A stretch of DNA of 19,394 bases from an uncultured bacterium (GTDB lineage: Bacteria; Verrucomicrobiota; Kiritimatiellia; RFP12; UBA1067). Made by a program: the position numbers and the translations under genes. The notes beneath the pieces are model-generated. The model was given only the letters and a program-made list of their open reading frames with translations, ran no database searches and was not told the DNA's origin. Positions 2,192 to 17,997 of this stretch are shown here, piece by piece. Location of the stretch: positions 1 to 19,394 of the forward strand of contig CACZAK010000080.1 of assembly GCA_902779075.1 (NCBI GenBank), read 5' to 3'. Within the stretch, counting starts at the first letter, position 1. The number at the start of each line of letters is the position of its first letter.

Positions 2192-2221
2192 AACCCACTT
2201 GTAATTTCTGCGACACCGCAC

Positions 2222-2259
2222 TTGCTTTTGGCCCCCGAGTTTGGTACACTTGGTACACT
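2222..2259 (+). promoter_or_regulatory. pncB promoter with a 9-bp direct repeat over the -10
   Basis: TTGCTT (2222-2227) and TACACT (2245-2250) are 17 bp apart, with TGG just before the -10. The nonamer TTGGTACAC occurs twice in direct tandem (2241-2249 and 2250-2258), so a second TACACT lies at 2254-2259. The repeat overlaps the promoter and could be an operator for NAD-responsive control, which is inference only. AAGGAGG at 2270-2276 is a strong ribosome binding site, though close to the ATG at 2280. Confidence 0.5.
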
Positions 2260-2279
2260 AACAAAAAACAAGGAGGCGA

Positions 2280-3500
2280 ATGAAACTTGAACCGATCATA
2301 ACGACACCGCTAGAGACGGATGCATATAAGATCAATATGCTCCAGGTCATTTTCTCGCAGTTCAGCAACGACCGTACAATCTGGGCTTTCAAATGCCGCA
2401 ACAAAAACGTGAAGTTCACGGCGGAGATGATAGACGAGATCAAAGACCAGATAGACTGCTACTGCCGCCTGTCGTTCGCGGACGACGAAATCGAGTACCT
2501 CAGAAACGCCTTCACGTGGCTGAAGCCGAACTTCCTGGATTTCCTGAGATTCTGGCATCCCTGGCGGAACGAGATTTTCATCAACGAGGGCGACGCACAA
2601 TCATATAACGACTGCGGGCTTGCCATTGAGTGCCGAGGTCCCCAGTTGGATGTCACTATGTACGAGATTCCGATTCTGGCAATCGTGAATGAAGTGTACT
2701 TTGCCTTCAAGTATGGCGGCGGGGCGAAGAACGAGGAGTTCAAGAGACGGACGACGGCGAAGTTCGAGGCTCTCAAGCGAGGAGAATATGACATCGGGGC
2801 GTTCTCTGAATTCGGCCTGCGCCGCCGCTACTCAAAGGAAATGCAGGACTGGCTGGTCAACTACATCGTGTCGGAGGGGATCCCGGGCTTTGTCGGGACT
2901 TCAAATGTCCATCTTGCCAAGAAGTACGGGGTAAAGGCCGTCGGTACTATGGCGCACGAGATGTTCCAGCTGATGCAGGGACACCACGAGTACAATCCTG
3001 CGTATTCCAACATGCTTGTGATGAAAGCGTGGGTAAAGGAGTATCAGACGGACAACGGCATAGCTTTGACGGACGCGATCACGACCGACTGCTTCCTCAA
3101 GGACTTCAACAAGACATACGCGACGCTGTTCAACGGTGTCCGCCACGATTCCGGCGATCCGATCGCGTGGGGCGAGAAGATGCTGGCGCACTTCCGAATG
3201 CTAGGCATCGACCCCATGACGAAAACGCTTCTGTTCTCCGACTCCCTGAATTTCGACAAGGCCACAGGGATCAAGAGGTATTTTGAAAATCGCTGCAAGG
3301 TGGCTTTCGGAATCGGAACGTACCTGTCGAATCCGCTTGACGATCCTCTCAACATCGTCCACAAGATGGTGGAGTGCAACGGGACCCCGGTGGCCAAGCT
3401 GTCAGATGTCGAGGGCAAGAACATGTGCCGCGACGAGGAGTACATATCCTACCTCCGCCGCTGCATCGACTGGCGGCTCGCGCATGAGAGCGGGATGTGA
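2280..3500 (+). CDS. pncB: Nicotinate phosphoribosyltransferase
   Basis: PncB converts nicotinate and PRPP, with ATP, to nicotinate mononucleotide in the Preiss-Handler NAD salvage pathway; it is cytoplasmic. The 406-residue protein aligns over its whole length with E. coli PncB (400 aa). Seen: TDAYKINMLQ near residue 13, FGLRRRYS (178-185), FVGTSN (204-209), GTMAHEMFQ with the His expected to be phosphorylated at 226, GIALTDAITTD (260-270), RHDSGDP (288-294), LLFSDSLNFDKA (318-329), FGIGTYLSN and NIVHKMVECNG. The ATG has AAGGAGG just upstream. It leads a plus-strand run with the nicotinamidase gene 59 nt downstream, which supplies its substrate. All key motifs are intact. The family assignment is secure. 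Confidence 0.96.
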   Translation: MKLEPIITTPLETDAYKINMLQVIFSQFSNDRTIWAFKCRNKNVKFTAEMIDEIKDQIDCYCRLSFADDEIEYLRNAFTWLKPNFLDFLRFWHPWRNEIFINEGDAQSYNDCGLAIECRGPQLDVTMYEIPILAIVNEVYFAFKYGGGAKNEEFKRRTTAKFEALKRGEYDIGAFSEFGLRRRYSKEMQDWLVNYIVSEGIPGFVGTSNVHLAKKYGVKAVGTMAHEMFQLMQGHHEYNPAYSNMLVMKAWVKEYQTDNGIALTDAITTDCFLKDFNKTYATLFNGVRHDSGDPIAWGEKMLAHFRMLGIDPMTKTLLFSDSLNFDKATGIKRYFENRCKVAFGIGTYLSNPLDDPLNIVHKMVECNGTPVAKLSDVEGKNMCRDEEYISYLRRCIDWRLAHESGM

Positions 3501-3559
3501 CCCTGCGTCCTTAGCAGTTTCGTTCAGCATCGCGGTATTCCAGACGAGGAGAGTTGAAA

Positions 3560-4111
3560 ATGGCAGAAAAGAAAGTCTTGGTGGTGGTTGACGTGCAAAA
3601 TGACTTCGTGAAAGGCGGGGTTCTTCCATACGGGTTCCCCGCGCGCGACAACACTGGAGACATCGAGAAAGCGGTGAAGGAGGCCGTGGAAGGCGGCGAT
3701 TACGTCTTTGCGACCCGCGACACCCACCATGCCGGCTACCACGACACGCTAGAGGGCCGGAAACTTCCGGTTGCCCACTGTATCGCCGGAACGAAGGGAT
3801 GGGAGTTCGTACCGTGGTTGGAGGAGCTTTCGCACGGAAAAGTATTTGTCGTAGACAAGCCTACGTTCGGAAGCACCGGACTGGGGAAGATTATCATGGA
3901 GCAATGCGCCCGCGACGGCAATATGATCGGCGAGATCCGGATTGCTGGCTACATGACCAGTATCTGCGTCCTTGCAAACGCCGTCCTTCTCCGTGCACAG
4001 TTCCCGGACACGAGGATCTCCGTCATGTCCGGCCTTTGCGGCGACGTGGACGCGGAATCCCACCATGCGGCGTTGAAGGTGCTTGGGATGCAGCAGGTCG
4101 ACGTGCTCTGA
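3560..4111 (+). CDS. pncA: Nicotinamidase-like cysteine hydrolase (isochorismatase family)
   Basis: The family member most likely here deamidates nicotinamide to nicotinate, feeding PncB directly. The 183-residue product has the cysteine-hydrolase triad in order: D11 in VVDVQNDF, K99 in VVDKPTFGS and C135 in GYMTSICVLANA. A probable metal site is D53 and H55 (ATRDTHH) with H72 in PVAHC, as in nicotinamidases. It is somewhat shorter than E. coli PncA (about 213 aa). I chose the ATG at 3560 because GAGGAGAG sits 6 nt upstream; a TTG two codons earlier would overlap that site. The sequence alone does not exclude another isochorismatase-like amidase, but the pncB neighbour makes nicotinamidase the best reading. 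Confidence 0.85.
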   Translation: MAEKKVLVVVDVQNDFVKGGVLPYGFPARDNTGDIEKAVKEAVEGGDYVFATRDTHHAGYHDTLEGRKLPVAHCIAGTKGWEFVPWLEELSHGKVFVVDKPTFGSTGLGKIIMEQCARDGNMIGEIRIAGYMTSICVLANAVLLRAQFPDTRISVMSGLCGDVDAESHHAALKVLGMQQVDVL

Positions 4112-4142
4112 TCAGGAGATTGAAAGGGAAAGGGATGTTGGC

Positions 4143-4730
4143 ATGAATTGCGTGTTCTTCTGGAAGATAAGTAGCGGCGGTGCGCTCGACAAGGGATGCC
4201 TGAGCCAGTGGTTTCCGGGTGATTTCGCCGTCGAAGGCGAGATGTACAGCTGTGCCGAACAATACATGATGGCGGAAAAGGCCCGTGTGTTCGGCGACAG
4301 TGCGACACTGGGGAAAATCCTGGCGGCGGAAACGCCGCATGAGATCAAGAAACTCGGCCGCGAGGTAGCAGGCTTCGACGGATCCATCTGGGACGGGATG
4401 AAATTCGGCATCGTGGTGCGCGGCAACATGGCGAAGTTCTCGCAGAATGAAAAACTGCGGGATTTTCTGGTCGGAACCGCCGACGCCACCCTCGTCGAGG
4501 CCAGTCCGAAGGACAGGGTGTGGGGCGTGGGCCTTGAGGAGACAGACCGGCGCATCCTGTATCCCGACCTGTGGCAGGGCGAGAATCTTCTCGGAAAGGC
4601 GCTCATGAAGGTGCGAGAAGAGATTCTCGGCACGAATGAGGCGCAGGGCGTCTGCGCCAGTCCGACGGAGGAATTTCGCCTGGGTGCGGAATCGGTGGTT
4701 GACATCGACGCCCTGCGAATGAAATCTTGA
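4143..4730 (+). CDS. NADAR-domain protein (YbiA/RibX-like superfamily)
   Basis: NADAR proteins are N-glycosidase-like enzymes linked to ADP-ribose and NAD derivatives; relatives act on early riboflavin intermediates (YbiA type) or remove ADP-ribose from guanine in DNA. Seen in 195 residues: LSQWFPGDFAVEGEMYSCAEQYMMAEKARVF, which matches the family's N-terminal pattern (SNF.P.PF..dG..y.svEHYfqA.K), then FDGSIWDGMK, AKFSQNEKLRDFLVGTADATLVEASPKDRVWGVGL and NLLGKALMKVREEI, all domain landmarks in order. About 25 extra C-terminal residues have no family signal. The ATG at 4143 lies 31 nt after the pncA stop. An upstream in-frame ATG at 4083 would overlap pncA. GGAAAGGGATG provides the ribosome site. 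The substrate is unknown; NAD or ADP-ribose chemistry is inferred from family and operon. Confidence 0.88.
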   Translation: MNCVFFWKISSGGALDKGCLSQWFPGDFAVEGEMYSCAEQYMMAEKARVFGDSATLGKILAAETPHEIKKLGREVAGFDGSIWDGMKFGIVVRGNMAKFSQNEKLRDFLVGTADATLVEASPKDRVWGVGLEETDRRILYPDLWQGENLLGKALMKVREEILGTNEAQGVCASPTEEFRLGAESVVDIDALRMKS

Positions 4731-4771
4731 GATTGAATACACCCTCTAGACAAGGAAAGAAGGAAAAACCG

Positions 4772-6595
4772 ATGAAAAAGAACTACACTTTTGACGAACT
4801 GTTCGACATGGGGATCAAGTTTCACCACTACACGAACACAGCATACCCGCTGAGGGTGAATTCGCTGGCGCACTACGAACTCCACGATGCCGGAGACGTC
4901 AGGAGGGTCGTCGAGGCCAACGTCAAGGCACAGCGCGAGCTCAACCTCTACGTCCATGTGCCATACTGCAAGACGCGTTGCAGGTTCTGCGAATACGTCG
5001 TCATGGACGACCCCAACGAAGTGCCGCAGGACAAGTACGTGGACTACCTCCTGCGCGAAATCGAGATGTACCGCGAAATGGCGGGGGACATCCCCATCGT
5101 GGGCTACGACCTCGGCGGCGGCACGCCGATGTACCTAACGCCCGGCAACATCAAGCGCATCACCGAGGGCATCAGGCAGTTCAACCTCACGCCCGGCATC
5201 ACGTTCAGCATCGAGACAACGCCCGTGATTGCCGCAAAGGAAGCGGAGAAAATCGCCGCCGCAAAGGCATTGGGCTACGACAGGATCTCGATGGGGTTCC
5301 AGACGGTTTCCGCCAGCCTCCTCGAATCGCTCGGACGCGAGGGCAGCAAGTCTATCTATGAACAGGCCGTCAAGAACATCCGGCTCGCGGGCTACACCCG
5401 CCTGAATATCGACCTGATGTACGGATTCCTCAACCAGAGCGACGACGACTTCGCCAACACCGTCAAGTACACCATCGCGATGAATCCGGAGTACGTCACC
5501 TTGTACCGAAACCGCTACAAGGGCACGAAACTGGAGAAGGAGTCGCAGGGGGTCAGCCTTTTCAAGGCCAACCGCCAGTATGAGATCGCCTACACGCTTC
5601 TCAAGGCGGCGGGCTACGACGCCAACGTCGGGAAAAACACCTTCAGCCGCGTTCCGGGCGATCTAGGCACGTCCGACTACCTGACCACAAGAGTCGTCAA
5701 CGCCACATCGTACATCGGGATGGGCCTGGGCGCGCAGTCGTTTGTCGGCAACTACCTGGCGTACAACCTCGGTTGCGACAGCCACAGGACGGACAAGTAT
5801 TTCGCCGCCGTCGACCGGGGCGAACTGCCCATCAACGACATCGCCGACATGCCGCTTGAAGAGGTCAGGGCAAAGGCGGTGTCGGTGATGTTCTACTTCG
5901 GATTCATCTCCATGAAGAGCTACAAGGCGCGGTTCGGCGAAGATTTCAGAGAGGTGTTCAAAGGCGAAATCAAGTACCTGCAGGACAACATGCTGATGGA
6001 ATACGTCGATGACGACACCTTCATGCTCACGGAATACGGTTCGCACCACATCTACGGCATCATCCCGCTGTTCTACAGCCAGAGATCCAAGGAGGAGATG
6101 TTCGACATGGCGCGACGGATTCTCAACCCCGAAAAGGGCGAGAGCATCTACCTGGAGAAATACGACCGCAAGCAGTACGATGCGCCGTCGGTGGCTGCCG
6201 ATGTAGTTGTGCTCTCCGCCGACCGCAAGAACATCGTTCTCATCACTCGCGGCAACCATCCTTTTGCCAACTCCCTCGCCTTGCCGGGCGGCTTCTACAC
6301 CCCCGGCGACGACACAATAGAAAACTGCGCCGTCCGCGAACTTAACGAAGAGACCGGATTGGATGTCGACGCCGCCGACCTTAGGCTGGTGAAAGTGTCG
6401 AGCGGCAGGAACCGCGACCCGCGCGGCTGGATTGTCTCAGTGGCATACATGGCCGTCCTGAAGAGCGACGCCGTGCCCCTCGCGGATTCCGACGCGATCA
6501 TGTGCAAGTGGTATTCCGTGGCGGATCTGGACAAGCTCCAGCTGGCGTTTGACCATAGGGCGATAATCAAAAAGGCGATGGAGGCGATTGCGTAG
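4772..6595 (+). CDS. Fused HemN/HemW-like radical SAM enzyme with C-terminal Nudix hydrolase domain
   Basis: The 607-residue protein has two parts. Residues 1-470 resemble the oxygen-independent coproporphyrinogen III oxidase-like (HemN/HemW) radical SAM family: LYVHVPYC, the 4Fe-4S/SAM motif CX3CX2C (C66, C70, C73), a glycine-rich DLGGGTPMYL, RISMGFQTVSASLLESLGR, INIDLMYG-like NIDLMYGF and a HemN_C-like winged-helix segment ending LTEYGSHHIYGII. Residues from about 485 to 607 form a Nudix domain with LPGGFYTPGDDTIENCAVRE then LNEETGL (about 504-530). The spacing has one residue more than the canonical Nudix box, while the catalytic REL.EET is intact. HemW/HemN proteins are normally about 380-460 residues with no Nudix part. 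The ATG at 4772 follows AAGGAAAGAAGG. An in-frame ATG at 4727 would overlap the NADAR gene by 4 nt. Function is unknown; the Nudix part suggests a nucleotide-diphosphate substrate such as ADP-ribose or a dinucleotide. Confidence 0.87.
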   Translation: MKKNYTFDELFDMGIKFHHYTNTAYPLRVNSLAHYELHDAGDVRRVVEANVKAQRELNLYVHVPYCKTRCRFCEYVVMDDPNEVPQDKYVDYLLREIEMYREMAGDIPIVGYDLGGGTPMYLTPGNIKRITEGIRQFNLTPGITFSIETTPVIAAKEAEKIAAAKALGYDRISMGFQTVSASLLESLGREGSKSIYEQAVKNIRLAGYTRLNIDLMYGFLNQSDDDFANTVKYTIAMNPEYVTLYRNRYKGTKLEKESQGVSLFKANRQYEIAYTLLKAAGYDANVGKNTFSRVPGDLGTSDYLTTRVVNATSYIGMGLGAQSFVGNYLAYNLGCDSHRTDKYFAAVDRGELPINDIADMPLEEVRAKAVSVMFYFGFISMKSYKARFGEDFREVFKGEIKYLQDNMLMEYVDDDTFMLTEYGSHHIYGIIPLFYSQRSKEEMFDMARRILNPEKGESIYLEKYDRKQYDAPSVAADVVVLSADRKNIVLITRGNHPFANSLALPGGFYTPGDDTIENCAVRELNEETGLDVDAADLRLVKVSSGRNRDPRGWIVSVAYMAVLKSDAVPLADSDAIMCKWYSVADLDKLQLAFDHRAIIKKAMEAIA

Positions 6596-6598
6596 CAT

Positions 6599-6614
6599 TT
6601 GTCAGTCTTGACAA
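6599..6614. repeat. Short perfect hairpin downstream of the radical SAM-Nudix gene
   Basis: TTGTCA (6599-6604) and TGACAA (6609-6614) form a 6-bp inverted repeat with a 4-nt loop, three bases after the stop codon. No T-run follows, so it is a poor terminator. It overlaps a TTGACA -35 candidate (6608-6613) and could be an operator. Confidence 0.5.
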
Positions 6615-6635
6615 CGGGAAACGTTCTGATCTGAT
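6608..6635 (+). promoter_or_regulatory. Candidate promoter of the methyltransferase gene
   Basis: A perfect -35 TTGACA (6608-6613) is followed after 16 bp by TCTGAT (6630-6635), which matches four of six -10 positions. The predicted transcript start is near 6642, only a few bases before the ATG at 6645, leaving little or no leader and no Shine-Dalgarno sequence. Confidence 0.4.
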
Positions 6636-6644
6636 TTGTGACCC

Positions 6645-7622
6645 ATGCAGGCGGGGAACCGCCACAGAAAGATGCAGCAGCATTTGCCGCAAACGCAGGA
6701 TTTCGAGCCGTCGCCGGACTTTGCACGGCTTGACCCCGGCGAAGTCCGCATAGAAAACGTCAACGAATACCTGTCGGATATGGCGAAGACGTTCCCGGAC
6801 AAAGCCTGGTTCATCGGATACATCAAGCCGGAAATAGACACGATAGTCGATTTTGGCGGAGGTACCGGGGATTTCTGCAAATACATCGCAGAACAGGCCG
6901 CATATTCAGGCCGTAGTTTCAAATTTGTCGTAATAGACAACAATGAATCTTTTGCAGCTTCTGCCCGTGAAAAAGGATACTTGGCATTTGCGAATCTATC
7001 CGACATGCTCACGTCGCAAGAAGTGCCGCTTGACAACGCGCTTCTCGTAATGTCATCGGTAATACATGAGATATATTCATATGCAAAACATCCTTGGGAG
7101 ATCGGCATTTTCTGGGCGGATGTGCGCGAATGTGATTTCAAGCAAATCGCCATCCGCGACATGAATCCTTGTTGCGAAGATTCTGCCGACGTACCGACTG
7201 ATGACATCGTCTGGGTTTACGAGAACGTATTGAAAGCCCCTACGCTGACGGTAAACGGCACGAAAGTATCGGACATTCTCCACGATTTCGAAAATGTATG
7301 GGGTGCAATCTGCGATTGTGCAAATGCAAATGTCAACATCCGGAATCTCATGCATTTTCTTTTCAAATACCGCTACGTGCGGAACTGGCGCCACGAATTA
7401 TATGAAAACTACTTTCCTTTGACGCAGAATGCGCTTGAATCGATCTTGACAGGCTTGGGCTACAGGCTGGTGCGGAAAGATTCGACAAAACTCCGCTTTT
7501 ATGACAAGGCATGGGCAAGAGACTTTCACCTTGACTGTCTGGATGGCAGGGAACACCGGTTGAAGTTTCGGAACTGGCTTTACACGCTCAACACGCATGT
7601 CAAGTGGTTAGCCGAAAAATAA
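6645..7622 (+). CDS. Class I SAM-dependent methyltransferase, function unknown
   Basis: The 325-residue product carries a Rossmann-fold methyltransferase motif I, TIVDFGGGTGDFCKYIAEQ (about residues 66-84), followed by FKFVVIDNN (motif II-like acidic end of strand 2, about 94-102) and a downstream ALLVMSSVIHEIYSY segment where the motif IV region is expected. The C-terminal 150 residues contain no domain I recognise. There is no clear ribosome site before the ATG at 6645; an internal ATG at 6672 is an alternative start. The gene is AT-richer than murF and murD to its right, with more ATA and other A/T-ending codons, suggesting separate acquisition. It is the last gene of the NAD-linked plus-strand run, 49 nt after the radical SAM-Nudix gene. 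The substrate (small molecule, protein or nucleic acid) cannot be told from sequence. Confidence 0.75.
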   Translation: MQAGNRHRKMQQHLPQTQDFEPSPDFARLDPGEVRIENVNEYLSDMAKTFPDKAWFIGYIKPEIDTIVDFGGGTGDFCKYIAEQAAYSGRSFKFVVIDNNESFAASAREKGYLAFANLSDMLTSQEVPLDNALLVMSSVIHEIYSYAKHPWEIGIFWADVRECDFKQIAIRDMNPCCEDSADVPTDDIVWVYENVLKAPTLTVNGTKVSDILHDFENVWGAICDCANANVNIRNLMHFLFKYRYVRNWRHELYENYFPLTQNALESILTGLGYRLVRKDSTKLRFYDKAWARDFHLDCLDGREHRLKFRNWLYTLNTHVKWLAEK

Positions 7623-7666
7623 GTCGCGGCCCGCCGTGCCTTCAGGCATACCGTTGGAGAATATGC

Positions 7667-7681: not shown

Positions 7682-8899
7682 ACTATTGGCACATTCAGAG
7701 GCGCGACGCTCGACTCGCGCAAGGTCAAGCCGGGCATGCTGTTCGTCGCTGTGAAGGGCGAACGCGTGGACGGACACGACTTCATCCCACAAGCCCTCGC
7801 GGACGGCGCGGCGGGAATCATCGACGGACGAGAGGAGCTCGCGCGCGTCGCCGCCGAGTACCGTCGCACGCTGAAGGCGAAGGTGATCGGTATCACAGGC
7901 AGCGCGGGCAAGACGACCACGAAGGAACTCGTGGCCGCGTTCCTCCGCGCGGGCGGTTTCCGCGTACACGCGACTGCGGGCAACTTCAACAACGACCTCG
8001 GCCTGCCGCTCACGATCCTCAACTGTCCCGAAGACGCGGAGTTTCTCGTGGTCGAGATGGGCACGAACCATCCCGGCGAAATCGCCTACCTCGTGGACAT
8101 CGCGCGCCCTGACGCGGGCGTGATCTCGTCCATAGGCACGGCGCACATCGAGTACTTCAAGACGCAGGACGGCATTGCGGACGAGAAGGGCACGCTCTTC
8201 GCGAGGTTGCCGCCGGACGGCTTCGCGGTGGTGGGCGTGAACAACGACCGCTATGAACGCCTGCGCGCGATGAGCGCCGCACGGGTGGTCGCGGTCGATC
8301 CATCCGATGCAGCGGGCGCGCGGATTGCCGAAGCGCTCGCGGTGCGTCTCCCCGGCGCGCACAACGTCTCCAACGCGCGTCTTGCGGCCGCGTGCGCGGG
8401 CGAATTCGGCGTTTCGCTGGAGCGTTGCATTGCGGCGCTTGAAGATTTCGCGCTGCCGGGCGACCGCTGGCGAGTGATAGAGAAGGACGGCGTCACGTAC
8501 GTGAACGACTGCTACAACGCTAACCCCACGTCGATGATCGCCGCGCTTGAGACGTTTGCAGCGATAACGTGTGCGGGTCGACGCGTGGCCGTGCTGGGCG
8601 ACATGTTCGAGCTGGGCGATCGCAAGGAGGCATTCCACGAGCAAGTGCTCAAGCGCGCTGCGGAACTTTCGATCGACGCGGTCTTCGCGGTGGGCGAGGC
8701 GATGGCCTCGGCGTGTGCGGCGGTCGCGGGGCGACCGCCCTACCGGGTGGCGGAAAATGTCGGGGTGGCGGGCGTCTCGCCCGCAAACTTCGCGGATGTC
8801 CCATCCGCGAAAGAAGCCCTCGCCACCTACCTTCGCTCTGGCGACGCCGTGCTGCTCAAGGCATCGCACGGCATGCACCTGGAGGCAATACTCGCATGA
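7679..8899 (+). CDS. murF: UDP-N-acetylmuramoyl-tripeptide--D-alanyl-D-alanine ligase
   Basis: MurF adds D-Ala-D-Ala to the UDP-MurNAc-tripeptide with ATP, the last cytoplasmic step of the peptidoglycan pentapeptide. Seen in 406 residues: DSRKVKPGMLFVAVKGERVDGHDF, the ATP loop GITGSAGKTTTKE (71-83), AGNFNNDLGLP, VVEMGTNHPGEI, SSIGTAHIEYF, the central-domain PGAHNVSNARLAAA and the C-terminal DCYNANPTSMIAAL and VLGDMFELG. The N-terminus is about 20-25 residues shorter than E. coli MurF, lacking the helix before the uridine-binding part. In-frame starts exist at 7673 (ATG) and 7604, but a promoter -10 at 7667-7672 argues for 7679 (or 7673). The stop overlaps the murD start as ATGA. It is the first gene of the cell-wall block. 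Confidence 0.94.
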   Translation: MTIGTFRGATLDSRKVKPGMLFVAVKGERVDGHDFIPQALADGAAGIIDGREELARVAAEYRRTLKAKVIGITGSAGKTTTKELVAAFLRAGGFRVHATAGNFNNDLGLPLTILNCPEDAEFLVVEMGTNHPGEIAYLVDIARPDAGVISSIGTAHIEYFKTQDGIADEKGTLFARLPPDGFAVVGVNNDRYERLRAMSAARVVAVDPSDAAGARIAEALAVRLPGAHNVSNARLAAACAGEFGVSLERCIAALEDFALPGDRWRVIEKDGVTYVNDCYNANPTSMIAALETFAAITCAGRRVAVLGDMFELGDRKEAFHEQVLKRAAELSIDAVFAVGEAMASACAAVAGRPPYRVAENVGVAGVSPANFADVPSAKEALATYLRSGDAVLLKASHGMHLEAILA

Positions 8900-10083: not shown

Positions 10084-11471
10084 AGGCGCAAAAGCTCGGA
10101 CTGGTTCTGGGTATCAATATGGCTGCGGCCTGCTTGGTGATGCAGGGCTGCAAGGCGACGAGGCCGGGGAAACCCGCTCCGCGGTCGTCGCAGGTCGATC
10201 AAACAATTACGGTCATCTCTATGCCGGATGCACGCAAGTCTCCGGTCGTAGCTCCTGTTGCGGAGCCGCTGGAGGTCCAGCAGCCGGAGCAGCCGGTTGC
10301 CGTCGTTACCGAATTGCCGCCGCCCCCGCCCGAGCCTGCTCCCGTCGTAGTTACGCCCGCCGCGCCGGCGCCCGTCGTCGTGCCGGTGGCCAAGACCCAG
10401 TCGTCAGTGCGCGAGATCAAGCCGTTGCCTCCGCCTCCTCCCAAGACGCCGAAGCCGAAGGCTAAGCCGGCTGCCAAGCCTGCCACCGCGCTGGTTGCTG
10501 CGCCTGCCGAGTATGTTGTCAAGTCAGGCGATACGCTCTTCCTCATCAGCAAGCGGACGAATTATCGCCAGTCTGCAATCTTGGCCGCGAATCCCGGGAT
10601 GGATCCCAAGCGCCTTCGCATTGGGCAGAAAATCAAGATGCCTGGGGCGGTTGCCGCCGCACCGGCCGTTGCCAAGGTCGCTGCGCCCGAGGCCAAGCCT
10701 GCGGACAAGGGCAGTGACGGCAAGGTAGTGCAGGCCGCCGCTCCGTCGCCGGCCGCCGCGAACACGACTGCACCCGTCAAGACGAAGAATGCGTTCGTCG
10801 CGTACGAAGGGCCTACGAAGGATTATGTGGTGAAGAGCGGGGAATCGCTCGGCAAGATCGCCAGCGAGTATGGCATCTCCATCCGCGCTCTCAAGGCGCT
10901 CAACGGACTTCAGGCTAATCAGCTGCGAGCGGGACAGAAACTGAAGGTTCCGACCGAGAAACAGACCGCCCCGGTGAACAAGGATCCAGCTGCAAAGGCG
11001 GAGAAGCCCGCGACGGGCGTAGCACCTGAAGCGGGGGGGCAGCCTGCTGCTGACGCGAAGCCCGCAGAGCCGAAGCCTGCTGCGGAAACTAAGCCTGTTG
11101 AGGCGAAGTCAGTGGAGAAGAAGCCCGTAGAGAAGAAAGTAGAGAAGAAGCTCGTCACAGAGGCGACAGTCGAGAAGAAGCCTGCTGCCGAGGCTAAGCC
11201 TGCCGCTGAAGCTAAGCCTGCCGCTGAGGCTAAACCTGTTGAGGTGGCGAAGCCCGTAGCGGAAGTTGCCCCCGTGCCTCCGGCTCCGGTGGAGACACCG
11301 GCCCTGCCCACTTACAAGGTGAAGGAGGGCGACGATCTCGTCTCCATCGCTATTGCCTACGGCATCAGCCCGAGCGCGCTCATGGACATCAATGACCTCA
11401 AGCCGACGGACGAGGTCAAGCCCGGCCAGATCCTGAAGCTTCCGGCTAACGCCAAGTCGAACGTCCAGTAA
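10080..11471 (+). CDS. LysM-repeat cell-envelope protein, probable lipoprotein
   Basis: The 463-residue protein has an N-terminal hydrophobic segment (about 6-22) ending MQGCKA with a possible lipidated Cys at 24; the lipobox is non-standard (Q at -2). It then has a long Pro/Ala/Lys-rich linker and three LysM domains: about 145-188 (YVVKSGDTLFLIS to KIKMPG), 249-291 (YVVKSGESLGKIA to KLKVP) and 411-455 (YKVKEGDDLVSIA to ILKLP). LysM domains bind N-acetylglucosamine-containing peptidoglycan. Between the second and third domains, repeats of AEAKPA with an 18-bp DNA period (around 11188-11240) form a flexible spacer. No catalytic domain is visible, so it is likely a structural or scaffolding wall-binding protein. 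It overlaps murD by 4 nt (ATGA) and is followed 7 nt later by ftsW, which ties it to wall synthesis or division. Confidence 0.88.
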   Translation: MKAQKLGLVLGINMAAACLVMQGCKATRPGKPAPRSSQVDQTITVISMPDARKSPVVAPVAEPLEVQQPEQPVAVVTELPPPPPEPAPVVVTPAAPAPVVVPVAKTQSSVREIKPLPPPPPKTPKPKAKPAAKPATALVAAPAEYVVKSGDTLFLISKRTNYRQSAILAANPGMDPKRLRIGQKIKMPGAVAAAPAVAKVAAPEAKPADKGSDGKVVQAAAPSPAAANTTAPVKTKNAFVAYEGPTKDYVVKSGESLGKIASEYGISIRALKALNGLQANQLRAGQKLKVPTEKQTAPVNKDPAAKAEKPATGVAPEAGGQPAADAKPAEPKPAAETKPVEAKSVEKKPVEKKVEKKLVTEATVEKKPAAEAKPAAEAKPAAEAKPVEVAKPVAEVAPVPPAPVETPALPTYKVKEGDDLVSIAIAYGISPSALMDINDLKPTDEVKPGQILKLPANAKSNVQ

Positions 11472-11478
11472 GGCGGTC

Positions 11479-12642
11479 GTGCGCTGGACGCTGACAGTTC
11501 TGGGTGTTTCGGTTCTCGTACTTCTGGGCCTCGGTTTTACGCTGCTGGCGTCCGCCGGCGAGGAGACGGGCCGCGCGCTGTACCACAGCGCATACTACTT
11601 CTTCACGCATCAAGCCGTATGGCTGGGCGTGGCGATGGCCTTCTTGCTAGTGGCGGCGTTCTTCGACTACCACAACTGGCGGCGCTATCCCTACCTGACG
11701 GTCTGTGTCTATGTAGTCATCGTTGGACTGATGGCCGCAGTGCTGCTGGCGCCTGAGACGAAGGGCTCGCACCGCTGGCTGCGTCTGGTCGGATCCGTGC
11801 GCCTCCAGCCAAGCGAGCTGGGAAAGATATTCGTCGTAATCTCCACCGCCGTCTTCCTCGACTGGGCCGGCTGGCGCATCGAGAAGTTCTGGAAAGGTTC
11901 CGTGCCGGCGGTGATGATCGTAGGCGTGCTGATGGGGCTTGCCGTAGTCGAGCCGGACTTCGGCGCGACGATGGTCATCGGCCTTGCCGGTGGTACGCTC
12001 TGCCTGATTGGCGGCATGCGCATACTCCATATCGTCCTGATGGGCGGCGGTGCCCTGGTGGCCGTCGGTACGCTGCTGGCGTTCAACCCGAACCGCATGC
12101 GCCGTTTGGCCGCATGGCTTCCGGAGCCGATTCTCACGTGGCTGGGACTGCCGCCGCCGACGGGGGATGACCCTGCGGCGTACCAGCTCAGCCAGGCGCT
12201 TGTCGCCATCAGCCACGGCGGGTTGTTCGGCGTGGGCTACACTAAGTCGATGCAGAAGAAGTTCTATCTGCCCGAAGCCCACACTGACTTCATTTTCGCC
12301 ATTGGCGCTGAGGAGCTGGGGCTGGTCTTCTCGCTTCTGCTCCTGACGGTGTTCACGGTGTTCTTCATCTGCGGTATCCGAATTGCGCAGCGCGCGCCGG
12401 ACCGCCTCGGCCGGTTGCTCGCCTTCGGCATGACGTTCCTCGTGTTCTTCCAGGTGCTGTTCAACATCGGCGTCGTCACGGGCTGCCTGCCCACGAAGGG
12501 ACTTGCCCTGCCGTTCATCAGCTACGGAGGCACGAACCTCATGACGTCGATGATCGCAGTGGGCATCCTTTTCAACATCGGACGACAAATTGAGTTGCCA
12601 AAACCGCGTCCGAGGAGTACAATATCACCCGTTTTTTCTTAA
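11479..12642 (+). CDS. ftsW: SEDS-family peptidoglycan glycosyltransferase, FtsW
   Basis: FtsW polymerises lipid II at the division septum with its class B penicillin-binding partner. The 387-residue protein is almost all membrane segments. Family signatures are GSHRWLRLVGSVRLQPSELGK (about 95-115), EPDFGATMVI, YQLSQALVAISHGGLFGVGY, LPEAHTDFIFAIGAEELG with the functionally important Asp, and LPFISYGGTNLMTSM near the C-terminus. The start is a GTG at 11479, 7 nt after the LysM gene stop, with AAGG close upstream. I prefer FtsW over RodA because of the murF-murD context; sequence features of the two overlap. The gene normally following in the dcw cluster, murG, is not here. The C-terminal coding region contains the serC promoter. 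Confidence 0.9.
   Translation: MRWTLTVLGVSVLVLLGLGFTLLASAGEETGRALYHSAYYFFTHQAVWLGVAMAFLLVAAFFDYHNWRRYPYLTVCVYVVIVGLMAAVLLAPETKGSHRWLRLVGSVRLQPSELGKIFVVISTAVFLDWAGWRIEKFWKGSVPAVMIVGVLMGLAVVEPDFGATMVIGLAGGTLCLIGGMRILHIVLMGGGALVAVGTLLAFNPNRMRRLAAWLPEPILTWLGLPPPTGDDPAAYQLSQALVAISHGGLFGVGYTKSMQKKFYLPEAHTDFIFAIGAEELGLVFSLLLLTVFTVFFICGIRIAQRAPDRLGRLLAFGMTFLVFFQVLFNIGVVTGCLPTKGLALPFISYGGTNLMTSMIAVGILFNIGRQIELPKPRPRSTISPVFS
12595..12623 (+). promoter_or_regulatory. serC promoter inside the 3' end of ftsW
   Basis: TTGCCA (12595-12600) and TACAAT (12618-12623) are exactly 17 bp apart and match the consensus at five of six positions each. The predicted transcript start near 12630 leaves a leader of about 30 nt with AAGGA at 12648-12652 before the serC ATG. 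Unlike the other candidates here it lacks the TG extension. Confidence 0.65.
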
Positions 12643-12660
12643 CCAATCAAGGAACAAGCA

Positions 12661-13737
12661 ATGTCTCGTGTCTATAATTTCTCGGCCGGTCCGGCCGTGT
12701 TGCCCCTTGAGGTCCTGCAGAACGCGCAGGCCGACCTCGTGGATTACAAGGGCTGCGGAATGTCCGTGATGGAGATGTCCCACCGCGGCAAGGACTACGA
12801 CGCCATCCACCAGGAGGCCATCGCCACGTTCAAGGAGCTCTGCGGCCTGGGCGACGACTGGTCGGTGTGCTTCATTCAGGGCGGCGCGTCGATGCAGTTC
12901 GCGATGATCCCGATGAACTTCCTCGGCGCGGGACAGTCCGCCGACTACGCCAACCAGGGTACATGGTCGAACAAGGCGCTCAAGCAGGCTCAGATGATCG
13001 GCAACGTGAACGTGGTGGCGAACTGCCAGAAGGACATTCCCACGCGCATGCCTGCGAACGACGAGTTCAAGTGGACCGCAGGCGCGGCGTACAGCCACAT
13101 CTGCACGAACGAGACGATTTCGGGTGCCGAGCTGAAGGTGATCCCGGACTCCGGCTCGCCGCTCATCGGCGACATGTCGAGCGACATCCTCTCCTGCGAG
13201 CGCGACTACTCGAAGTTCACGATGTTCTACGCGGGCGCGCAGAAGAACCTCGGGCCTTCCGGCATGGCAGTGGTGGCAATCCGCAAGGAATTCGCGGAGA
13301 AGGGCTCCACTACGATCCCCACGATGTTGCAGTACCGCACCTACGTGGACGAGAACTCGCTCTACAACACGCCGCCCACCTGGGGCATCTACATCTTCGG
13401 CGAGGTAATGAAGTGGGTTAAGAAGATGGGCAAGGAGAACCTCTTCAAGCTCAACGCCGAGAAGGCGAAGAAGATCTACGACGTGATCGACGGCTCGGGC
13501 TTCTACCGCGGCACGGCACTGAAGGAATACCGTTCCAACATGAACGTCACGTGGCGCCTGCCCACCGAGGAGCTGGAGGCCCAGTTCATTAAGGAGGCCA
13601 CCGCCGCCGGCATGAAGTCGCTGAAGGGACACCGCTCCGTGGGCGGTATCCGTGCGTCGATCTACAATGCCTTCCCGATGGCCGGCGTGGACTGCCTCGT
13701 CGACTTCATGAAGGAGTTCGAGAAGAAGAACGGCTAA
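12661..13737 (+). CDS. serC: Phosphoserine aminotransferase
   Basis: SerC is a class V PLP-dependent aminotransferase converting 3-phosphohydroxypyruvate and glutamate to O-phosphoserine in serine synthesis (also used in pyridoxal phosphate synthesis in some bacteria). The 358 residues match the family length (about 360). Seen: YNFSAGPAVLP at the start, GMSVMEMSHRGKDY, FIQGGASMQFAMIPMNF, the PLP lysine K195 in YAGAQKNLGPSG, YNTPPTWGIY and GHRSVGGIRASIYNAF at the end. It is preceded by its own promoter and AAGGA. It adjoins ftsW by position only, with no shared pathway. All catalytic signatures are intact. Confidence 0.96.
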   Translation: MSRVYNFSAGPAVLPLEVLQNAQADLVDYKGCGMSVMEMSHRGKDYDAIHQEAIATFKELCGLGDDWSVCFIQGGASMQFAMIPMNFLGAGQSADYANQGTWSNKALKQAQMIGNVNVVANCQKDIPTRMPANDEFKWTAGAAYSHICTNETISGAELKVIPDSGSPLIGDMSSDILSCERDYSKFTMFYAGAQKNLGPSGMAVVAIRKEFAEKGSTTIPTMLQYRTYVDENSLYNTPPTWGIYIFGEVMKWVKKMGKENLFKLNAEKAKKIYDVIDGSGFYRGTALKEYRSNMNVTWRLPTEELEAQFIKEATAAGMKSLKGHRSVGGIRASIYNAFPMAGVDCLVDFMKEFEKKNG

Positions 13738-13755
13738 TCCGCCGCCGCGCGGATT
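13736..13755. terminator. Hairpin between convergent serC and the coiled-coil gene
   Basis: AATCCGC (13736-13742) and GCGGATT (13749-13755) form a perfect 7-bp stem with a 6-nt loop, overlapping both convergent stop codons. No clear T-run follows on the plus strand (AAAAC), so termination on either strand is plausible but weakly supported. Confidence 0.45.
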
Positions 13756-14695
13756 AAAACACCCGGTTGCAGATTTCCGCCGCGCTGTTAAGGCAGCTGC
13801 GGTGGTCGCTGGGTGTTTTTGCCACGGGGAAGCGGATGCCCGCGAAGTCGAGCTTGTGGTGGTTTGCCCCTGAGACGTAGCGGAAGCCGAGTTTCTCCAA
13901 CGCTGCGATCGTTGCGTCGTCGATGAAGGTTCCGGCGTCCTTCATGATCTGCTTCACCTCGTCGCGACGGCGCGCGAGTTCGCCCGTGACGGCGTTCTCG
14001 CAGAGAATCGCCTCGAGGATGCGCGCGCGGCGGTCGCGTCCACCCGCGTCTGCCGCGCGTTGCGCGTCCGCGAGCGCCTCCAGCAGGTGCTCGCGTACCT
14101 CGCCGGGAAACTTTTCGGAGAAGCTTTCGGGCTTGTCCAGCAGCACGGTGGAGGAGAGCGAGGTGCGCTGTGCCTCGACTAGCAGTTCCTGGAGGCGCGC
14201 GATCTCGCGGGCCTTTGCGGCTGCATCTTCCAGCATCGCCTCGTCCACTTTCGGCGCGGCGCGTTCGGCGTCGAGCGTAGCTTTCGTCTGGGCAAGCTCT
14301 CCCCGTACCTGCGCAAGTTCTTCCTGCGCCCGCGCTAGTTCTTCCTGTGCCCTTGCGAGTTCGTCCTTTGCCTCGGCAGCGTCTATGGCGAGGGCATCGA
14401 TCACAGCCTGTTTCTCTTCAAGTTCGGCGTTGAGGGCGTCGCGCTCAGAGGCGAAGGCGTCCTCGGCCTGCTCGGCACGCACGCGGGAGATCGTTGCTGG
14501 TGTTACGACTGTGGTGCGTGGAGGTTTCTTCCGTGGCGACGCGCCTGTGCCGAGAAGGGAGGAGAAGTAGTCGGTGGAGTTTGCGGATTCCGCAAGTTTT
14601 CGGTCTTCAGGCGCGGGCGGCGGCTCTGGTGGCGGTTCGGGTTCGGCGGGACGGAACTTTTTGAGCTGCGATAAGTCGGAAAATGTCTTTGCCAT
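13754..14695 (-). CDS. Coiled-coil protein of unknown function
   Basis: The 313-residue soluble protein has no signal peptide. It starts MAKTFSDLSQLKKF, has a proline-rich stretch (PEPPPEPPPAPE, about 19-30), then a long charged alanine/glutamate-rich coiled coil (about 70-175) with repeated ELARAQEELA heptads encoded by tandem-repeat DNA. The C-terminal part (about 180-313) is mixed and ends with the compact segment NHHKLDFAGIRFPVAKTPSD then HRSCLNSAAEICNRVF, which looks like a small folded domain that I cannot name. I chose ATG 14695 because GAGGAA sits 7 nt upstream; an upstream ATG at 14761 would overlap the preceding gene. It lies 10 nt after the PQ-loop-like gene, so it may be the last gene of that operon. 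It could be a structural or scaffold protein. Confidence 0.75.
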   Translation of the reverse strand: MAKTFSDLSQLKKFRPAEPEPPPEPPPAPEDRKLAESANSTDYFSSLLGTGASPRKKPPRTTVVTPATISRVRAEQAEDAFASERDALNAELEEKQAVIDALAIDAAEAKDELARAQEELARAQEELAQVRGELAQTKATLDAERAAPKVDEAMLEDAAAKAREIARLQELLVEAQRTSLSSTVLLDKPESFSEKFPGEVREHLLEALADAQRAADAGGRDRRARILEAILCENAVTGELARRRDEVKQIMKDAGTFIDDATIAALEKLGFRYVSGANHHKLDFAGIRFPVAKTPSDHRSCLNSAAEICNRVF

Positions 14696-14705: not shown

Positions 14706-14984
14706 TCAGGTGCGGTTCTTCCGGGCATAATGAAAGTAGAGCGCGAGGTCGGTCGCGACAAGCGCCGTATCGGCCAGGTACACCCAAGTCACCCAGCTTC
14801 GGTCACTGATGAGGTGACTCGCGATGCCAAAGAGGTACCCTACGATCACGATGATCTCAAACATCGGGCTTTTGCCGTCGACGCGCTTTGCGCGGAGGGT
14901 CTTGGCGATCGCGAACGGCCAGGAAAAGCCGAAGCAGAAGAGCATCGCGAATTCTAGAATGCGTGGAAGGGTGTCGGGATTCAT
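14706..14984 (-). CDS. Small membrane protein, PQ-loop/SemiSWEET-like
   Basis: This 92-residue protein has three predicted membrane segments: ILEFAMLFCFGFSWPFAIA, FEIIVIVGYLFGIASHL and WVYLADTALVATDLALYFH. The layout resembles the half-transporter PQ-loop family (SemiSWEET): the FSWPFAIAKTLRAKRVDGKS segment aligns by eye with the usual LPQ...K.T..IS loop, followed by a GY.FGI helix and a final D/N helix. This is a topological resemblance, not proof; substrate and oligomer state are unknown. The ATG at 14984 overlaps the stop of the upstream polyferredoxin gene (ATGA), giving tight translational coupling and choosing this start over the longer open frame. A role in the DUF362/polyferredoxin operon is inferred from that coupling only. 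Confidence 0.7.
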   Translation of the reverse strand: MNPDTLPRILEFAMLFCFGFSWPFAIAKTLRAKRVDGKSPMFEIIVIVGYLFGIASHLISDRSWVTWVYLADTALVATDLALYFHYARKNRT

Positions 14985-16219
14985 CTTGTCTGTGGCTTGC
15001 CTTTCGCCTTTAGCGGCTTGACGACTATGGCGATGGGGTCGGCCGGGCAGTTGCTTTCGCAAGCGCCGCAGCCGCGGCATTTCTTCTCGTCGATGACGGG
15101 ACAGCTCACACCGTCGTGTTCCTCCACCTTGACGGCCTTGTAGGGACAGTATTCGTCGCAAACGACGCAATACTCGTGGTTCTCCCACGCGAGGCACTTC
15201 TTGCGGTCAATCACGGCGATGCCGATCGGGGTCGCGTGTTTATGCTCCACAGTGAGCGGACGCAGCGCGCCCGTGGGGCACACCTGCGTGCAGGCGACGC
15301 AGTCCTGGAAGCAGTACTGCTCCTGGTCGGCGTTGCGGCTACGCAGCTGGAGCGCGGGCGTGAACAGGCCCTCGATGCCGCTGTCACCCAGGTCGGGCTG
15401 AATCAACTGGTAAGGACATGCCTTCATGCAGTTGCCGCACCGTGCGCAGAGTGCGTTGAAGCGCTCCAGATCGGCTCCGGGCGGACGGATGGCGTCGCGT
15501 CCCTTCGCGCCGACCGCATGCCGCACGGCGATGCTCGCGGCGGCTGCGGGGATGGCCGCCAGCACGGTACGGCGCGTGGCTCCGACGACGGAGAGGGCGG
15601 ACTGCTCCGGCGTGCCGTCCGCAGTCTTAGCCTTGCGGCGGCAGAGCTGCGCAATCGTCTCCTGCAGGCCGCCGAGCGGACACAGCCGGTGGCACCAGAT
15701 GTTCGGCACGGCGATGCTTGCGAGGAGAACCAGCACGAACCCGATGCCCGTACCGGCCGAGGCGATTGCAAGCGGCTCGCGCCAGGCGGCGAAGAAGCCG
15801 TTGAAGATGCACAGCGGGTCACACCAGATTAGGAGCGGATAGCCGCAGGCCGCCGACACGGCAATCACGAGCGCGAGCGCCTTGTTGACCATGGGCACGC
15901 GCCGGACGAGCCCCTTGCCCCACGGATTCAGTTTCCCGGCCGTCTCCGAGAGGAAGCCCATCGGGCAGAGGTGCCAGCAGAAGAACCTCCCTTTGAATGC
16001 GGCGAGCACTAGGAGCGGGATGCCGAGCAGCATGAGCCAGCCCAGCCACGCCCGCGTCGCCAACGCGCCGAAGAGGCTCAGGATCGGACTGAGACGCGGA
16101 AGGATCGAGGCGAGTTCGGGGTGTGATTCGGGGACGTACCCCAACGCGAGGACTGCGGCGGCCGCTGCAATCAGCAGTCGCCAGATGTTGCGCCTCAACC
16201 ACTTCATGGCGGCTTTCAT
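14981..16219 (-). CDS. Membrane polyferredoxin, NapH-like and NapG/MauM-like fusion
   Basis: A 412-residue electron-transfer protein. The N-terminal half (1-235) resembles NapH: several membrane helices and two NapH-type cysteine signatures, CWHLCPMG (81-88) and CHRLCPLGG (176-184). The second half (about 250-400) resembles NapG/MauM ferredoxins, with four cysteine clusters: C258-C268 (CARCGNCMKACP), C303-C314, C351-C358 (CVVCDEYCP) and C381-C391 (CRGCGACESNCP), enough for about four 4Fe-4S centres. At the junction, GATRRTVLAAIPAAAASIAV (213-232) looks like a NapG Tat signal turned internal, as expected if two genes were fused. No nap nitrate reductase is nearby, so it probably moves electrons for the DUF362 partner. 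The ATG at 16219 lies 2 nt after the DUF362 stop, with GAGG 7 nt upstream; 16207 is an alternative start. Confidence 0.85.
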   Translation of the reverse strand: MKAAMKWLRRNIWRLLIAAAAAVLALGYVPESHPELASILPRLSPILSLFGALATRAWLGWLMLLGIPLLVLAAFKGRFFCWHLCPMGFLSETAGKLNPWGKGLVRRVPMVNKALALVIAVSAACGYPLLIWCDPLCIFNGFFAAWREPLAIASAGTGIGFVLVLLASIAVPNIWCHRLCPLGGLQETIAQLCRRKAKTADGTPEQSALSVVGATRRTVLAAIPAAAASIAVRHAVGAKGRDAIRPPGADLERFNALCARCGNCMKACPYQLIQPDLGDSGIEGLFTPALQLRSRNADQEQYCFQDCVACTQVCPTGALRPLTVEHKHATPIGIAVIDRKKCLAWENHEYCVVCDEYCPYKAVKVEEHDGVSCPVIDEKKCRGCGACESNCPADPIAIVVKPLKAKGKPQTR

Positions 16220-16221: not shown

Positions 16222-17151
16222 TTAAACCTCGACGCGCTCGACGTCAATCTTCGAGAGATCGGCGCAACCAACGCCTAGTTCGGCCGCAAGCTTGATGTGC
16301 GGCACGTCCTCGGGGGTCTTCTTGAAGAGCGAGGCGGCGTATGTATCGGCAGCGACGGGATCTGTGGCGAAGATGATCTCGTGGGGATGCGCCAGCTTGC
16401 CGGGACCCTGCGGGCCGTGGTCGAGCATGATGCGCGTCGCGTCGATCACGATGAGTGTGGGTTTGAGGAAGGTGCTGAAGTCGGCGATGCACTGGTGGAG
16501 CCCGTTGCGGTGCCACGACCGGCGCGTCTTGTTGTCCACCGCGCCCATCCAGTTCTTCATCGAGAGGGTGAGCGTGGCGCCGCTGTGGTGCTTGGCAACG
16601 GGCATGTTCACGAGGCAGTCCGCCTCGATGAGGTCGCGCGTGACCTTGGCCTTCTGGCAGATTTTCCCCTTGGGCACGTCCACTTCCTTGTATTCGGCGG
16701 GCTTGGGACGGTAGAGTTTCGCCGAAGTCCCCTCAATCGCGTCGTTCGCGCCGCTGACCTTGAAAGTCATCTTCTCGGGCTGGCACGTGTTCTCGGGGAT
16801 GAGGATCTGCTTCACCTTGCAGGTCTCCGCGCCCTTGATGACGGCGCGCAGGATGTCGGGGTGCGTGTTGCCGCCCTGTTCGGGGGTGGAGTTCCAGGCG
16901 AGGTTCGGCTTGAGCGCCACTTTGGCTCCGGGCTTGAAGAACTTGTCCCATCCGCCCATCTTCGCCATGCCGGCCTCGACCATCTTTGCGAGGTTCGTGC
17001 CGTGCACGACGACGATCTTCGTCTTTTTTTCGTCCGCCAGCGTTTCCGCTGGCACGATTGCCGCTGCCGCCACGGCGGCTCCGGCCTTGAGGAACGTGCG
17101 CCGCTTGAGGTTGGCGGGCTTGCTAGTGACTTTGCTGTTTTTACTTTTCAT
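16222..17151 (-). CDS. Tat-exported DUF362-family protein
   Basis: The 309-residue protein begins with a twin-arginine signal (LKRRTFLKAGAAVAAAAIVP, about 15-34, with a likely cut near ETLADE), so it folds in the cytoplasm and is exported, often a sign of a cofactor. The mature part fits DUF362: KIVVVHGTN, VALKPNLAWNSTPEQGGNTH, ADCLVNMPVAKHHSGATLTLS then MKNWMGAVDNKTR, CIADFSTFLKPTLIVIDATR, and an ATDPVAADTYAASLF segment. DUF362 proteins have no firmly assigned reaction and commonly sit beside ferredoxin-like genes, as here. The ATG at 17151 follows AAGGAG by 8 nt and an extended -10 (TGGTATACT) at about 17186. It leads the minus-strand operon with the polyferredoxin. The family is confident and the function is unknown. 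Confidence 0.9.
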   Translation of the reverse strand: MKSKNSKVTSKPANLKRRTFLKAGAAVAAAAIVPAETLADEKKTKIVVVHGTNLAKMVEAGMAKMGGWDKFFKPGAKVALKPNLAWNSTPEQGGNTHPDILRAVIKGAETCKVKQILIPENTCQPEKMTFKVSGANDAIEGTSAKLYRPKPAEYKEVDVPKGKICQKAKVTRDLIEADCLVNMPVAKHHSGATLTLSMKNWMGAVDNKTRRSWHRNGLHQCIADFSTFLKPTLIVIDATRIMLDHGPQGPGKLAHPHEIIFATDPVAADTYAASLFKKTPEDVPHIKLAAELGVGCADLSKIDVERVEV

Positions 17152-17180
17152 GTTAAATCTCCTTGGAGCGAATGGCGAAC

Positions 17181-17189
17181 AGTATACCA
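17181..17189 (-). promoter_or_regulatory. Extended -10 promoter of the DUF362 operon
   Basis: On the minus strand TGGTATACT (17189-17181) is an extended -10. The predicted transcript start near 17174 leaves a leader of about 23 nt including AAGGAG. No good -35 is visible at 17-18 bp. Confidence 0.55.
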
Positions 17190-17991: not shown

Positions 17992-17997
17992 ACCGGC

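Follow-up and report, generated by a model that had tools for sequence, protein, structure and literature searches.

The window analyzed here, a 19,394-nucleotide stretch of contig CACZAK010000080.1 from an uncultured bacterium of the Kiritimatiellia, carries a five-gene cassette on the plus strand at positions 2192 to 7656. In order, its genes encode a nicotinate phosphoribosyltransferase (NAPRT, 2280 to 3500), a nicotinamidase-like amidase (PncA-like, 3560 to 4111), a NADAR protein that is a predicted adenosine diphosphate ribose (ADP-ribose) N-glycosidase (4143 to 4730), a HemN-like radical S-adenosylmethionine (SAM) domain joined to a Nudix domain of the NrtR type, the winged helix of NrtR being absent (4772 to 6595), and a class I SAM-dependent methyltransferase whose family also occurs in viral contigs (6645 to 7622). 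The gaps between the genes measure 59, 31, 41, and 49 bp. The gene murF starts 56 bp past the end of the methyltransferase gene, and a gene for an iron-containing alcohol dehydrogenase (Fe-ADH) lies upstream on the opposite strand. An earlier note on this DNA had described five closely spaced genes on one strand, which is confirmed at these coordinates (gaps of 31 to 59 bp). The salvage pair that it named is present as two family members, in the reverse of the proposed order, with NAPRT preceding the PncA-like gene.

Insertion of the cassette

The sister species G014 (locus L197) and G012 (L207) show an empty site, in which the 5,465 bp from 2192 to 7656 are replaced by 2 bp between the Fe-ADH side and murF. 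Because this segment is a single insertion, the five genes represent more than a chance adjacency. The nearest genome, G001, carries the cassette, and the nearest record, L002 (isolate RUG10619, from the scan of genome contigs), is probably the same genome, because the cassette lies on contig 34 in both.

Compared with L002, the cassette differs by 13 substitutions (0.24%) and one gap base over 5,465 bp, whereas the segments outside it diverge by 1.25 to 4.55%: 19 substitutions in 700 bp of the left flank, 50 in 1,098 bp of murF, 47 in 1,292 bp of murD, 32 in the 2,559 bp from 10084 to 12642, and 78 in the 1,992 bp from 12643 to 14634. Since it is less diverged than its flanks, the cassette would have spread more recently than the flanks diverged, and it appears to have moved recently and as one block. 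It has no terminal repeats, in that its ends share no word of at least 8 bases (34 of 200 shuffles have one). The G+C content is 0.486 in the methyltransferase gene, 0.54 to 0.60 in the other cassette genes, and 0.61 to 0.66 in nine of ten flanking open reading frames (ORFs), the tenth (14706 to 15197) having 0.585. Low values (0.50 to 0.51) also occur at 17001 to 19000, so G+C by itself proves nothing about the origin of the cassette.

The leader (2192 to 2279, plus strand) contains a computed 9-bp tandem repeat, TTGGTACAC, at 2241 to 2259. A candidate promoter, TTGCTT-17-TACACT, was read there by eye and is absent from the list of a promoter scan whose site count is near chance (4 found versus 3.0 expected). 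No Rfam family was found in the window at the gathering score.

Salvage genes and NAD routes of the host

The NAPRT belongs to its family by both models applied, with 225.4 bits for PF04095 (NAPRTase), above the curated cut-off, and 403.1 bits for TIGR01514 (cut-off, 269.55). The PncA-like protein is a member of PF00857 (Isochorismatase; 69.6 bits, cut-off 27). Its top PDB matches, 6a8l and 5zn8, are named isochorismatase, and further ones (1ilw, 3s2s, 3o90, and 3pl1) are named nicotinamidase or pyrazinamidase; it falls under both NCBIfam cut-offs that it matched (biuret amidohydrolase, 33.7 of 370 bits; nicotinamidase PRK11609, 22.8 of 174). Since solved nicotinamidases are among these matches, it may work as a nicotinamidase. 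A phage origin of the NAPRT was considered and rejected: a viral NAPRT has 60% identity to it, versus 83 to 84% for other proteins, for which the search gives no organisms (only the 7,999 candidates sharing the most words were scored). PncA relatives were not found in viral contigs.

In the 16 genomes of the host genus, NAPRTase was found once, as the cassette copy itself, and it is present in none of the seven with completeness of 90% or more and contamination of 5% or less. Matches to NadD occur in 15 of the 16 (13 above the cut-off), matches to NadC in 13 (12 above the cut-off), and domains of the nicotinamide adenine dinucleotide (NAD) synthase type in all 16, the Pfam family catching other ligases too. 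Given the strong matches of G001 for NadD, NadC, and NAD synthase, de novo NAD synthesis appears to operate in the lineage, and the cassette appears to add a salvage entry, judged on NAPRT rather than PncA genes, whose product could be finished by NadD and NadE. The earlier note gave these last two enzymes as absent from the window; they lie outside the five genes, and matches to them are found elsewhere in G001. The window resembles Preiss-Handler salvage (PncA, PncB/NAPRT, NadD, and NadE) in its NAPRT above the TIGR01514 cut-off, in the adjoining PncA-like gene, and in the NadD and NAD-synthase matches of the nearest genome; it differs in that the genes travel in a mobile block with NADAR, radical SAM-Nudix, and methyltransferase genes.

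Among 97 relatives the methyltransferase occurs in G001 only, and within the phylum one genome in a sample of 194 has it. A radical SAM-Nudix relative was found in two of the 97, G001 and G078; the latter, of the same order, has it at 44% identity with an NrtR-like part present.

The radical SAM-Nudix protein

This protein combines a radical SAM domain (PF04055, 70.2 bits, cut-off 29.5), with the CxxxCxxC motif of the superfamily, and a NUDIX domain (PF00293, 70.3 bits, above the curated cut-off); its predicted structure has a predicted local distance difference test score (pLDDT) of 87.8. The closest solved structures are HemN (1olt) and the Nudix domain of NrtR with ADP-ribose (3gz8). NrtR is a repressor that responds to ADP-ribose. 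The window protein shares with it this Nudix likeness, and an NrtR winged helix is fused to 14 of 79 relatives. It differs from NrtR in having a HemN-like domain in front and no winged helix (PF21906), which the relative at L054 does have.

In an alignment of 43 family sequences, C66, C70, C73, the GGGTP motif, E148, Q177, R189, and D214 are invariant; in HemN these positions bind SAM. In the Nudix part R522, E523, and E527 are invariant and E526 is conserved in at least 90%. The pattern RE[LIVF]xE[EA] is found in 74 of 80 family proteins, the window protein keeping its RExxEE, at the place where Shewanella NrtR has RKLAEK. An intact RExxEE was considered as proof of an active Nudix enzyme and rejected, since separate NrtR-like proteins retain it.

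An ordinary HemN or HemW relative working in heme metabolism, with an incidental NAD linkage, would account for HemN 1olt being the closest solved relative and for the HemN/HemW-like character of the named radical SAM models matched; the likeness to HemN, HemW, and the radical SAM methylase NocN lies in the top radical SAM matches, 1olt and 9p2u. However, the protein scores below every named cut-off (hemN, 145.7 of 324.95 bits; HemW, 107.9 of 205.4; STM4012, 176.8 of 380; ChuW/HutW, 122.2 of 400), the Nudix domain is fused across the aligned family, and the linkage to NAD genes recurs, as described below. We regard a role in heme metabolism as very improbable.

Genomic neighborhoods of the radical SAM-Nudix family

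A family scan of species genomes gave 147 relatives, of which the best 80 loci were kept. L002, the window's own cassette, was excluded from the neighborhood counts, leaving 79 loci, many of them on short contigs, which makes these counts lower bounds. By record titles, the hosts are mostly metagenome-assembled and include Bacteroidales, Lachnospiraceae, Ruminococcus, Treponema, Desulfobacterales, Photobacterium, Planctomycetia, Verrucomicrobia, and others.

Genes of the salvage type (PncA, NAPRT, NadE, NAMPT-like, or phosphoribosyl pyrophosphate [PRPP]-synthase-like) lie on the same strand within 4 kb in 20 of the 79 loci. Counting either strand, salvage and NrtR-like hits number 66 per 528 kb near the gene versus 1 per 402 kb farther out. 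When all 80 proteins are clustered, 4 of 17 clusters at 75% identity and 19 of 63 at 90% contain salvage-linked loci. The protein carries a fused NrtR winged helix at 14 loci and a separate NrtR-like gene is found at 18, with no locus having both (either form, 32 of 79); 34 loci have salvage genes, NrtR (fused or separate), or both. Since many relatives have NrtR either as a fused part or as a neighboring gene, the radical enzyme looks like part of an NAD/ADP-ribose regulon there. A first count of 26 fusions was rejected because the model took in Nudix sequence, the 14 remaining when the last 66 residues are used. The lack of overlap between the two forms was likewise rejected as strong evidence, its chance being 0.018 with relatedness ignored.

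The link between the radical SAM-Nudix gene and NAD, which the earlier note drew from operon context, is thus upheld beyond this genome. Its candidate system of five genes is not, in that salvage genes recur at other loci while NADAR and the methyltransferase do not: these two accompany the radical SAM-Nudix gene in the window's lineage only. Uniqueness here holds for the exact set of five genes and not for the radical SAM-NAD link. The gene was not found in viral contigs, and 62 phage records and 564 plasmids gave no match covering 80% of the query, only HemN-like pieces.

A related methyltransferase domain, within a larger protein, adjoins the radical SAM-Nudix gene in 5 of the 79 loci. A macrodomain gene directly adjoins it in L072 and lies 5 kb off in L059. 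The closest analogue of the window cassette, as judged from gene content, is L072 (Anaerobacterium), where NrtR, PncA-like, NAPRT, macrodomain, and radical SAM-Nudix genes are followed by those for a methyltransferase fusion, an SPFH protein, and a protein related to one in L031. The last of these, as represented in L031, weakly resembles an NAD kinase (24.8 of 371 bits) and has no match in Pfam. The window's methyltransferase family matches the L072-type fusion at a profile probability of 97.7 (E value, 1.6e-12), and the macrodomain occupies the place of the window's NADAR. Both are ADP-ribose-processing folds (PMC9503650).

As a separate observation, the radical SAM-Nudix protein, a PRK06922-like methyltransferase fusion, the SPFH protein, and the weakly NAD-kinase-like protein recur together in L025, L031, L033, and L072, the L025 fusion scoring 575 of 602 bits against the PRK06922 model. 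Directly downstream of the radical SAM-Nudix gene in L031 (9958 to 15457), and also in L033, lie three tandem genes of about 600 codons (cluster c43), the first of which reads by eye as a membrane-anchored efflux adaptor.

NARP1-type loci and the NADAR protein

In six loci (L047, L048, L051, L054, L055, and L062) the radical SAM-Nudix gene is followed by genes for PncA, a PRPP-synthase-like protein, a NAMPT-like protein, and NadE. By its scores, the PRPP-synthase-like and NAMPT-like pair is Adps/Namat-like in the members tested. The PRPP-synthase-like proteins of L055 and L047, two of the six, score 239 and 236 bits with the phage family phrog_619, versus 110 and 112 bits with a ribose-phosphate diphosphokinase model (cut-off, 113). 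The single NAMPT-like protein compared, from L051, scores 392 bits with 9w5x and 9w5w, the Namat structures of PMC12774641, versus 315 bits with 9ke8 (labeled Nampt, not identified further) and about 160 bits with human Nampt entries. The L051 and L054 proteins also pass an NCBIfam model named nicotinate phosphoribosyltransferase (L051, 435 bits, cut-off 405). Five of the six proteins retain the sequence around R40 and F392, two clamp residues of Namat, the pattern missing L062; the third clamp residue, Y396, aligns to Cys in L051. Bacterial NARP1 is reported to work, with Namat countering NAD depletion, and neither radical SAM nor NrtR is mentioned in the main text of that report (PMC12774641). 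The likeness to NARP1 (Adps and Namat) therefore concerns these six relatives; none of the window's five genes belongs to either family.

The window's NADAR protein scores 178 bits with PF08719 (cut-off, 35.1) and 172.2 bits with TIGR02464 (cut-off, 73.7). Compared with 8bau, seven of eight ADP-ribose-site residues match (E39, K46, R73, W83, E119, D124, and W127) and K87 stands for Arg; the eight residues are those named in PMC11543638, and every one of the eight letters agrees with 8bau if the numbering is shifted by 2, as we infer. Family match and conserved site together place the protein in the NADAR superfamily, and, like YbiA, it has Glu at the residue that marks the subfamily (PMC11125620). 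It thus shares family, ADP-ribose-site residues, and Glu with the toxin-antitoxin pairs DarT1-NADAR and YarT-YbiA. Unlike those pairs, it has no adjacent ADP-ribosyltransferase gene, since no such match was found among the five genes by family scans or in Fe-ADH and murF by Pfam. Viral contigs hold 29 NADAR relatives, three of them (L170, L185, and L186) near NAMPT-like genes.

These loci bear on whether the cassette is a protective module that restores NAD and removes ADP-ribose adducts after an NAD-depleting or ADP-ribosylating attack. NADAR relatives undo guanine ADP-ribosylation and some are antitoxins (PMC11543638, PMC11125620), the Adps/Namat-like pair accompanies six radical SAM relatives, the window's NADAR has a match at 3.2e-46 to PDC-M42C, a candidate family in PADLOC, and the cassette appears to have moved recently, all of which would suit such a function. 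Against it, the five genes include no match to an NADase or an ADP-ribosyltransferase and no NAMPT-like or PRPP-synthase-like gene. The NADAR scores only 44.4 of 240 bits with the NCBIfam antiphage NADAR model, and the other PADLOC matches are weak or partial (PDC-S07, 8.2e-6; mad2, 8.6e-4), the best elsewhere being mad2 at 2.1e-9 for the L025 fusion. On balance we consider a protective module unlikely.

The methyltransferase and its viral relatives

The methyltransferase has no Pfam match. Its confident structural model (mean pLDDT, 90.6) has the class I methyltransferase fold, and a fold search returned many tied class I small-molecule methyltransferases, with no substrate named. The family search found 52 proteins, the window's own near-copy among them. 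Viral contigs hold 111 relatives, of which 80 loci were kept, many on contigs of 50 to 500 kb. Salvage-type genes lie near the viral gene at nine of these 80 (L088, L090, L119, L131 to L133, L145, L150, and L151), which we read as about six separate contexts; in L090 the order is Nudix protein, PncA-like, NadE, NAPRT, and methyltransferase.

The methyltransferase, and perhaps NADAR, could be passengers that travel with the salvage pair and the radical enzyme. The low G+C of the methyltransferase gene relative to the other cassette genes would fit this, as would its many viral relatives, found in a scan whose bacterial genomes were those of the phylum, and the failure to see by eye a ribosome-binding site upstream of its start. 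However, a related domain adjoins the radical SAM-Nudix gene in the five bacterial loci described above, and the nine viral loci link the family to salvage-type genes. Passenger status is a credible minority view, and we hold it somewhat doubtful.

Three further observations concern this family. Viral loci L131 to L133, L150, and L151 also contain VWA, PP2C, polynucleotide-kinase-phosphatase-like (L131), or metallophosphatase (L150) genes. In L085 (5935 to 6951) the viral methyltransferase is in three pieces under the standard code, which stop-codon reassignment, a sequencing error, or decay would explain. The homologue P0016 has 533 residues, with an additional C-terminal part.

Features flanking the cassette

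Compared with L002 and the sister species, the Fe-ADH gene (959 to 2271) is missing about 20 bp at its start, and it can be read in two overlapping frames, 959 to 1657 and 1243 to 2271; as the stretch is present in L002, the gap would be a strain variant or an assembly error. At 8755 to 8791 the murF alignment is interrupted relative to L002 and the sister locus L197, the window having about 40 extra bases, and in G012 (L207/L208) the murF match is split into two pieces in different frames. The low-G+C stretch from 17001 to 19394 contains three ORFs (17618, 18162, and 18804) without a Pfam match and is possibly another island.

Proposed role of the cassette

We propose, with about even confidence, that the cassette is a recently moved module for NAD salvage and ADP-ribose turnover that includes a HemN-like radical enzyme. 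Judging by their families, the PncA-like protein would convert nicotinamide to nicotinate, NAPRT would join nicotinate and PRPP into nicotinate mononucleotide, and NadD and NadE of the host would complete NAD. This salvage step is supported by family membership and host context. NADAR would release ADP-ribose from N-glycosidic conjugates, the known substrate of its relatives being ADP-ribosylated guanine (PMC11543638). The Nudix domain would bind ADP-ribose or a similar ligand and may cut it to adenosine monophosphate and ribose 5-phosphate, which can replenish PRPP. This recovery of ADP-ribose is supported by families and residues, with a reservation about the Nudix box. The most speculative steps are that the HemN-like domain uses radical chemistry to process or repair a nucleotide of the pyridine or ADP-ribosyl type that the Nudix domain holds or gates, a suggestion drawn from genomic linkage, and that the methyltransferase works on a related small molecule, if it is not a passenger.

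Several observations weigh against this proposal. Neither salvage genes nor NrtR are found at 45 of the 79 loci, including L003, the closest relative from Bacteroidales at 86% identity, and NADAR and the single-domain methyltransferase adjoin the gene at none of the 79, many of which are on short contigs. Linkage that recurs while most relatives stand alone suggests that the need met by the radical enzyme may coincide with NAD salvage in some cases only. In viruses, 71 of the 80 methyltransferase loci are without salvage-type genes, and in phage Phosso the methyltransferase gene (at 12 kb) is far from NAPRT and NadE (at about 272 to 274 kb). The five-gene set may also be a mosaic, since the identity to nearest relatives differs gene by gene (radical SAM-Nudix, 86%; NAPRT, 83 to 84%; NADAR, 62 to 65%; methyltransferase, 57%). 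Any substrate named for the PncA-like amidase or for the radical domain is putative. The ligand of the Nudix domain is uncertain, since the NrtR family takes in AraR, which responds to arabinose (PMC4666351). Finally, RExxEE is also found in 10 of 11 separate NrtR-like proteins of related loci, and the box of the window protein, GFYTPGDDTIENCAVRELNEETGL, departs from the full canonical form, GX5EX7REUXEEXGU, with an extra residue before RE and Asp at a Glu position.

As the Nudix box fails to separate enzyme from regulator, the module proposal becomes less sure and a sensor becomes likelier, in which the state of the iron-sulfur cluster or of SAM tunes an NrtR-type ligand switch without catalysis. 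Such a sensor would also explain why an NrtR winged helix is either fused or encoded separately, never both, within the limit on that comparison given above. However, the cluster cysteines and GGGTP are invariant in all 43 aligned sequences, the family has RExxEE where Shewanella NrtR has RKLAEK, and the window protein has no winged helix; we regard a pure sensor as distinctly unlikely.

Beyond the window, we suggest only tentatively that radical SAM-Nudix/NrtR proteins constitute a previously undescribed type of radical enzyme, responsive to ADP-ribose and working in NAD reconstitution, which has spread across several phyla and is carried here by a mobile cassette. Its members, in both salvage and NARP1-type contexts, would act on a pyridine or ADP-ribosyl nucleotide, and the cassette would give a NAPRT-less lineage salvage together with ADP-ribose recycling. 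Titles and abstract openings yielded no description of a fusion of radical SAM with Nudix or NrtR in NAD metabolism, a weak negative with most subscription journals outside the search.

For the host genus, in which NAPRT was otherwise not found, the cassette would be an entry to NAD salvage gained as a single mobile block. Should derivatives of NAD or ADP-ribose be the substrates of the radical enzyme, anaerobes would have an NAD-recycling step outside the known salvage routes. Rebuilding NAD matters for bacterial stress and phage conflict. That NrtR and NARP1-type genes repeatedly accompany the enzyme supplies direct candidates for testing. The radical enzyme may mark an unexplored step in microbial NAD rebuilding.

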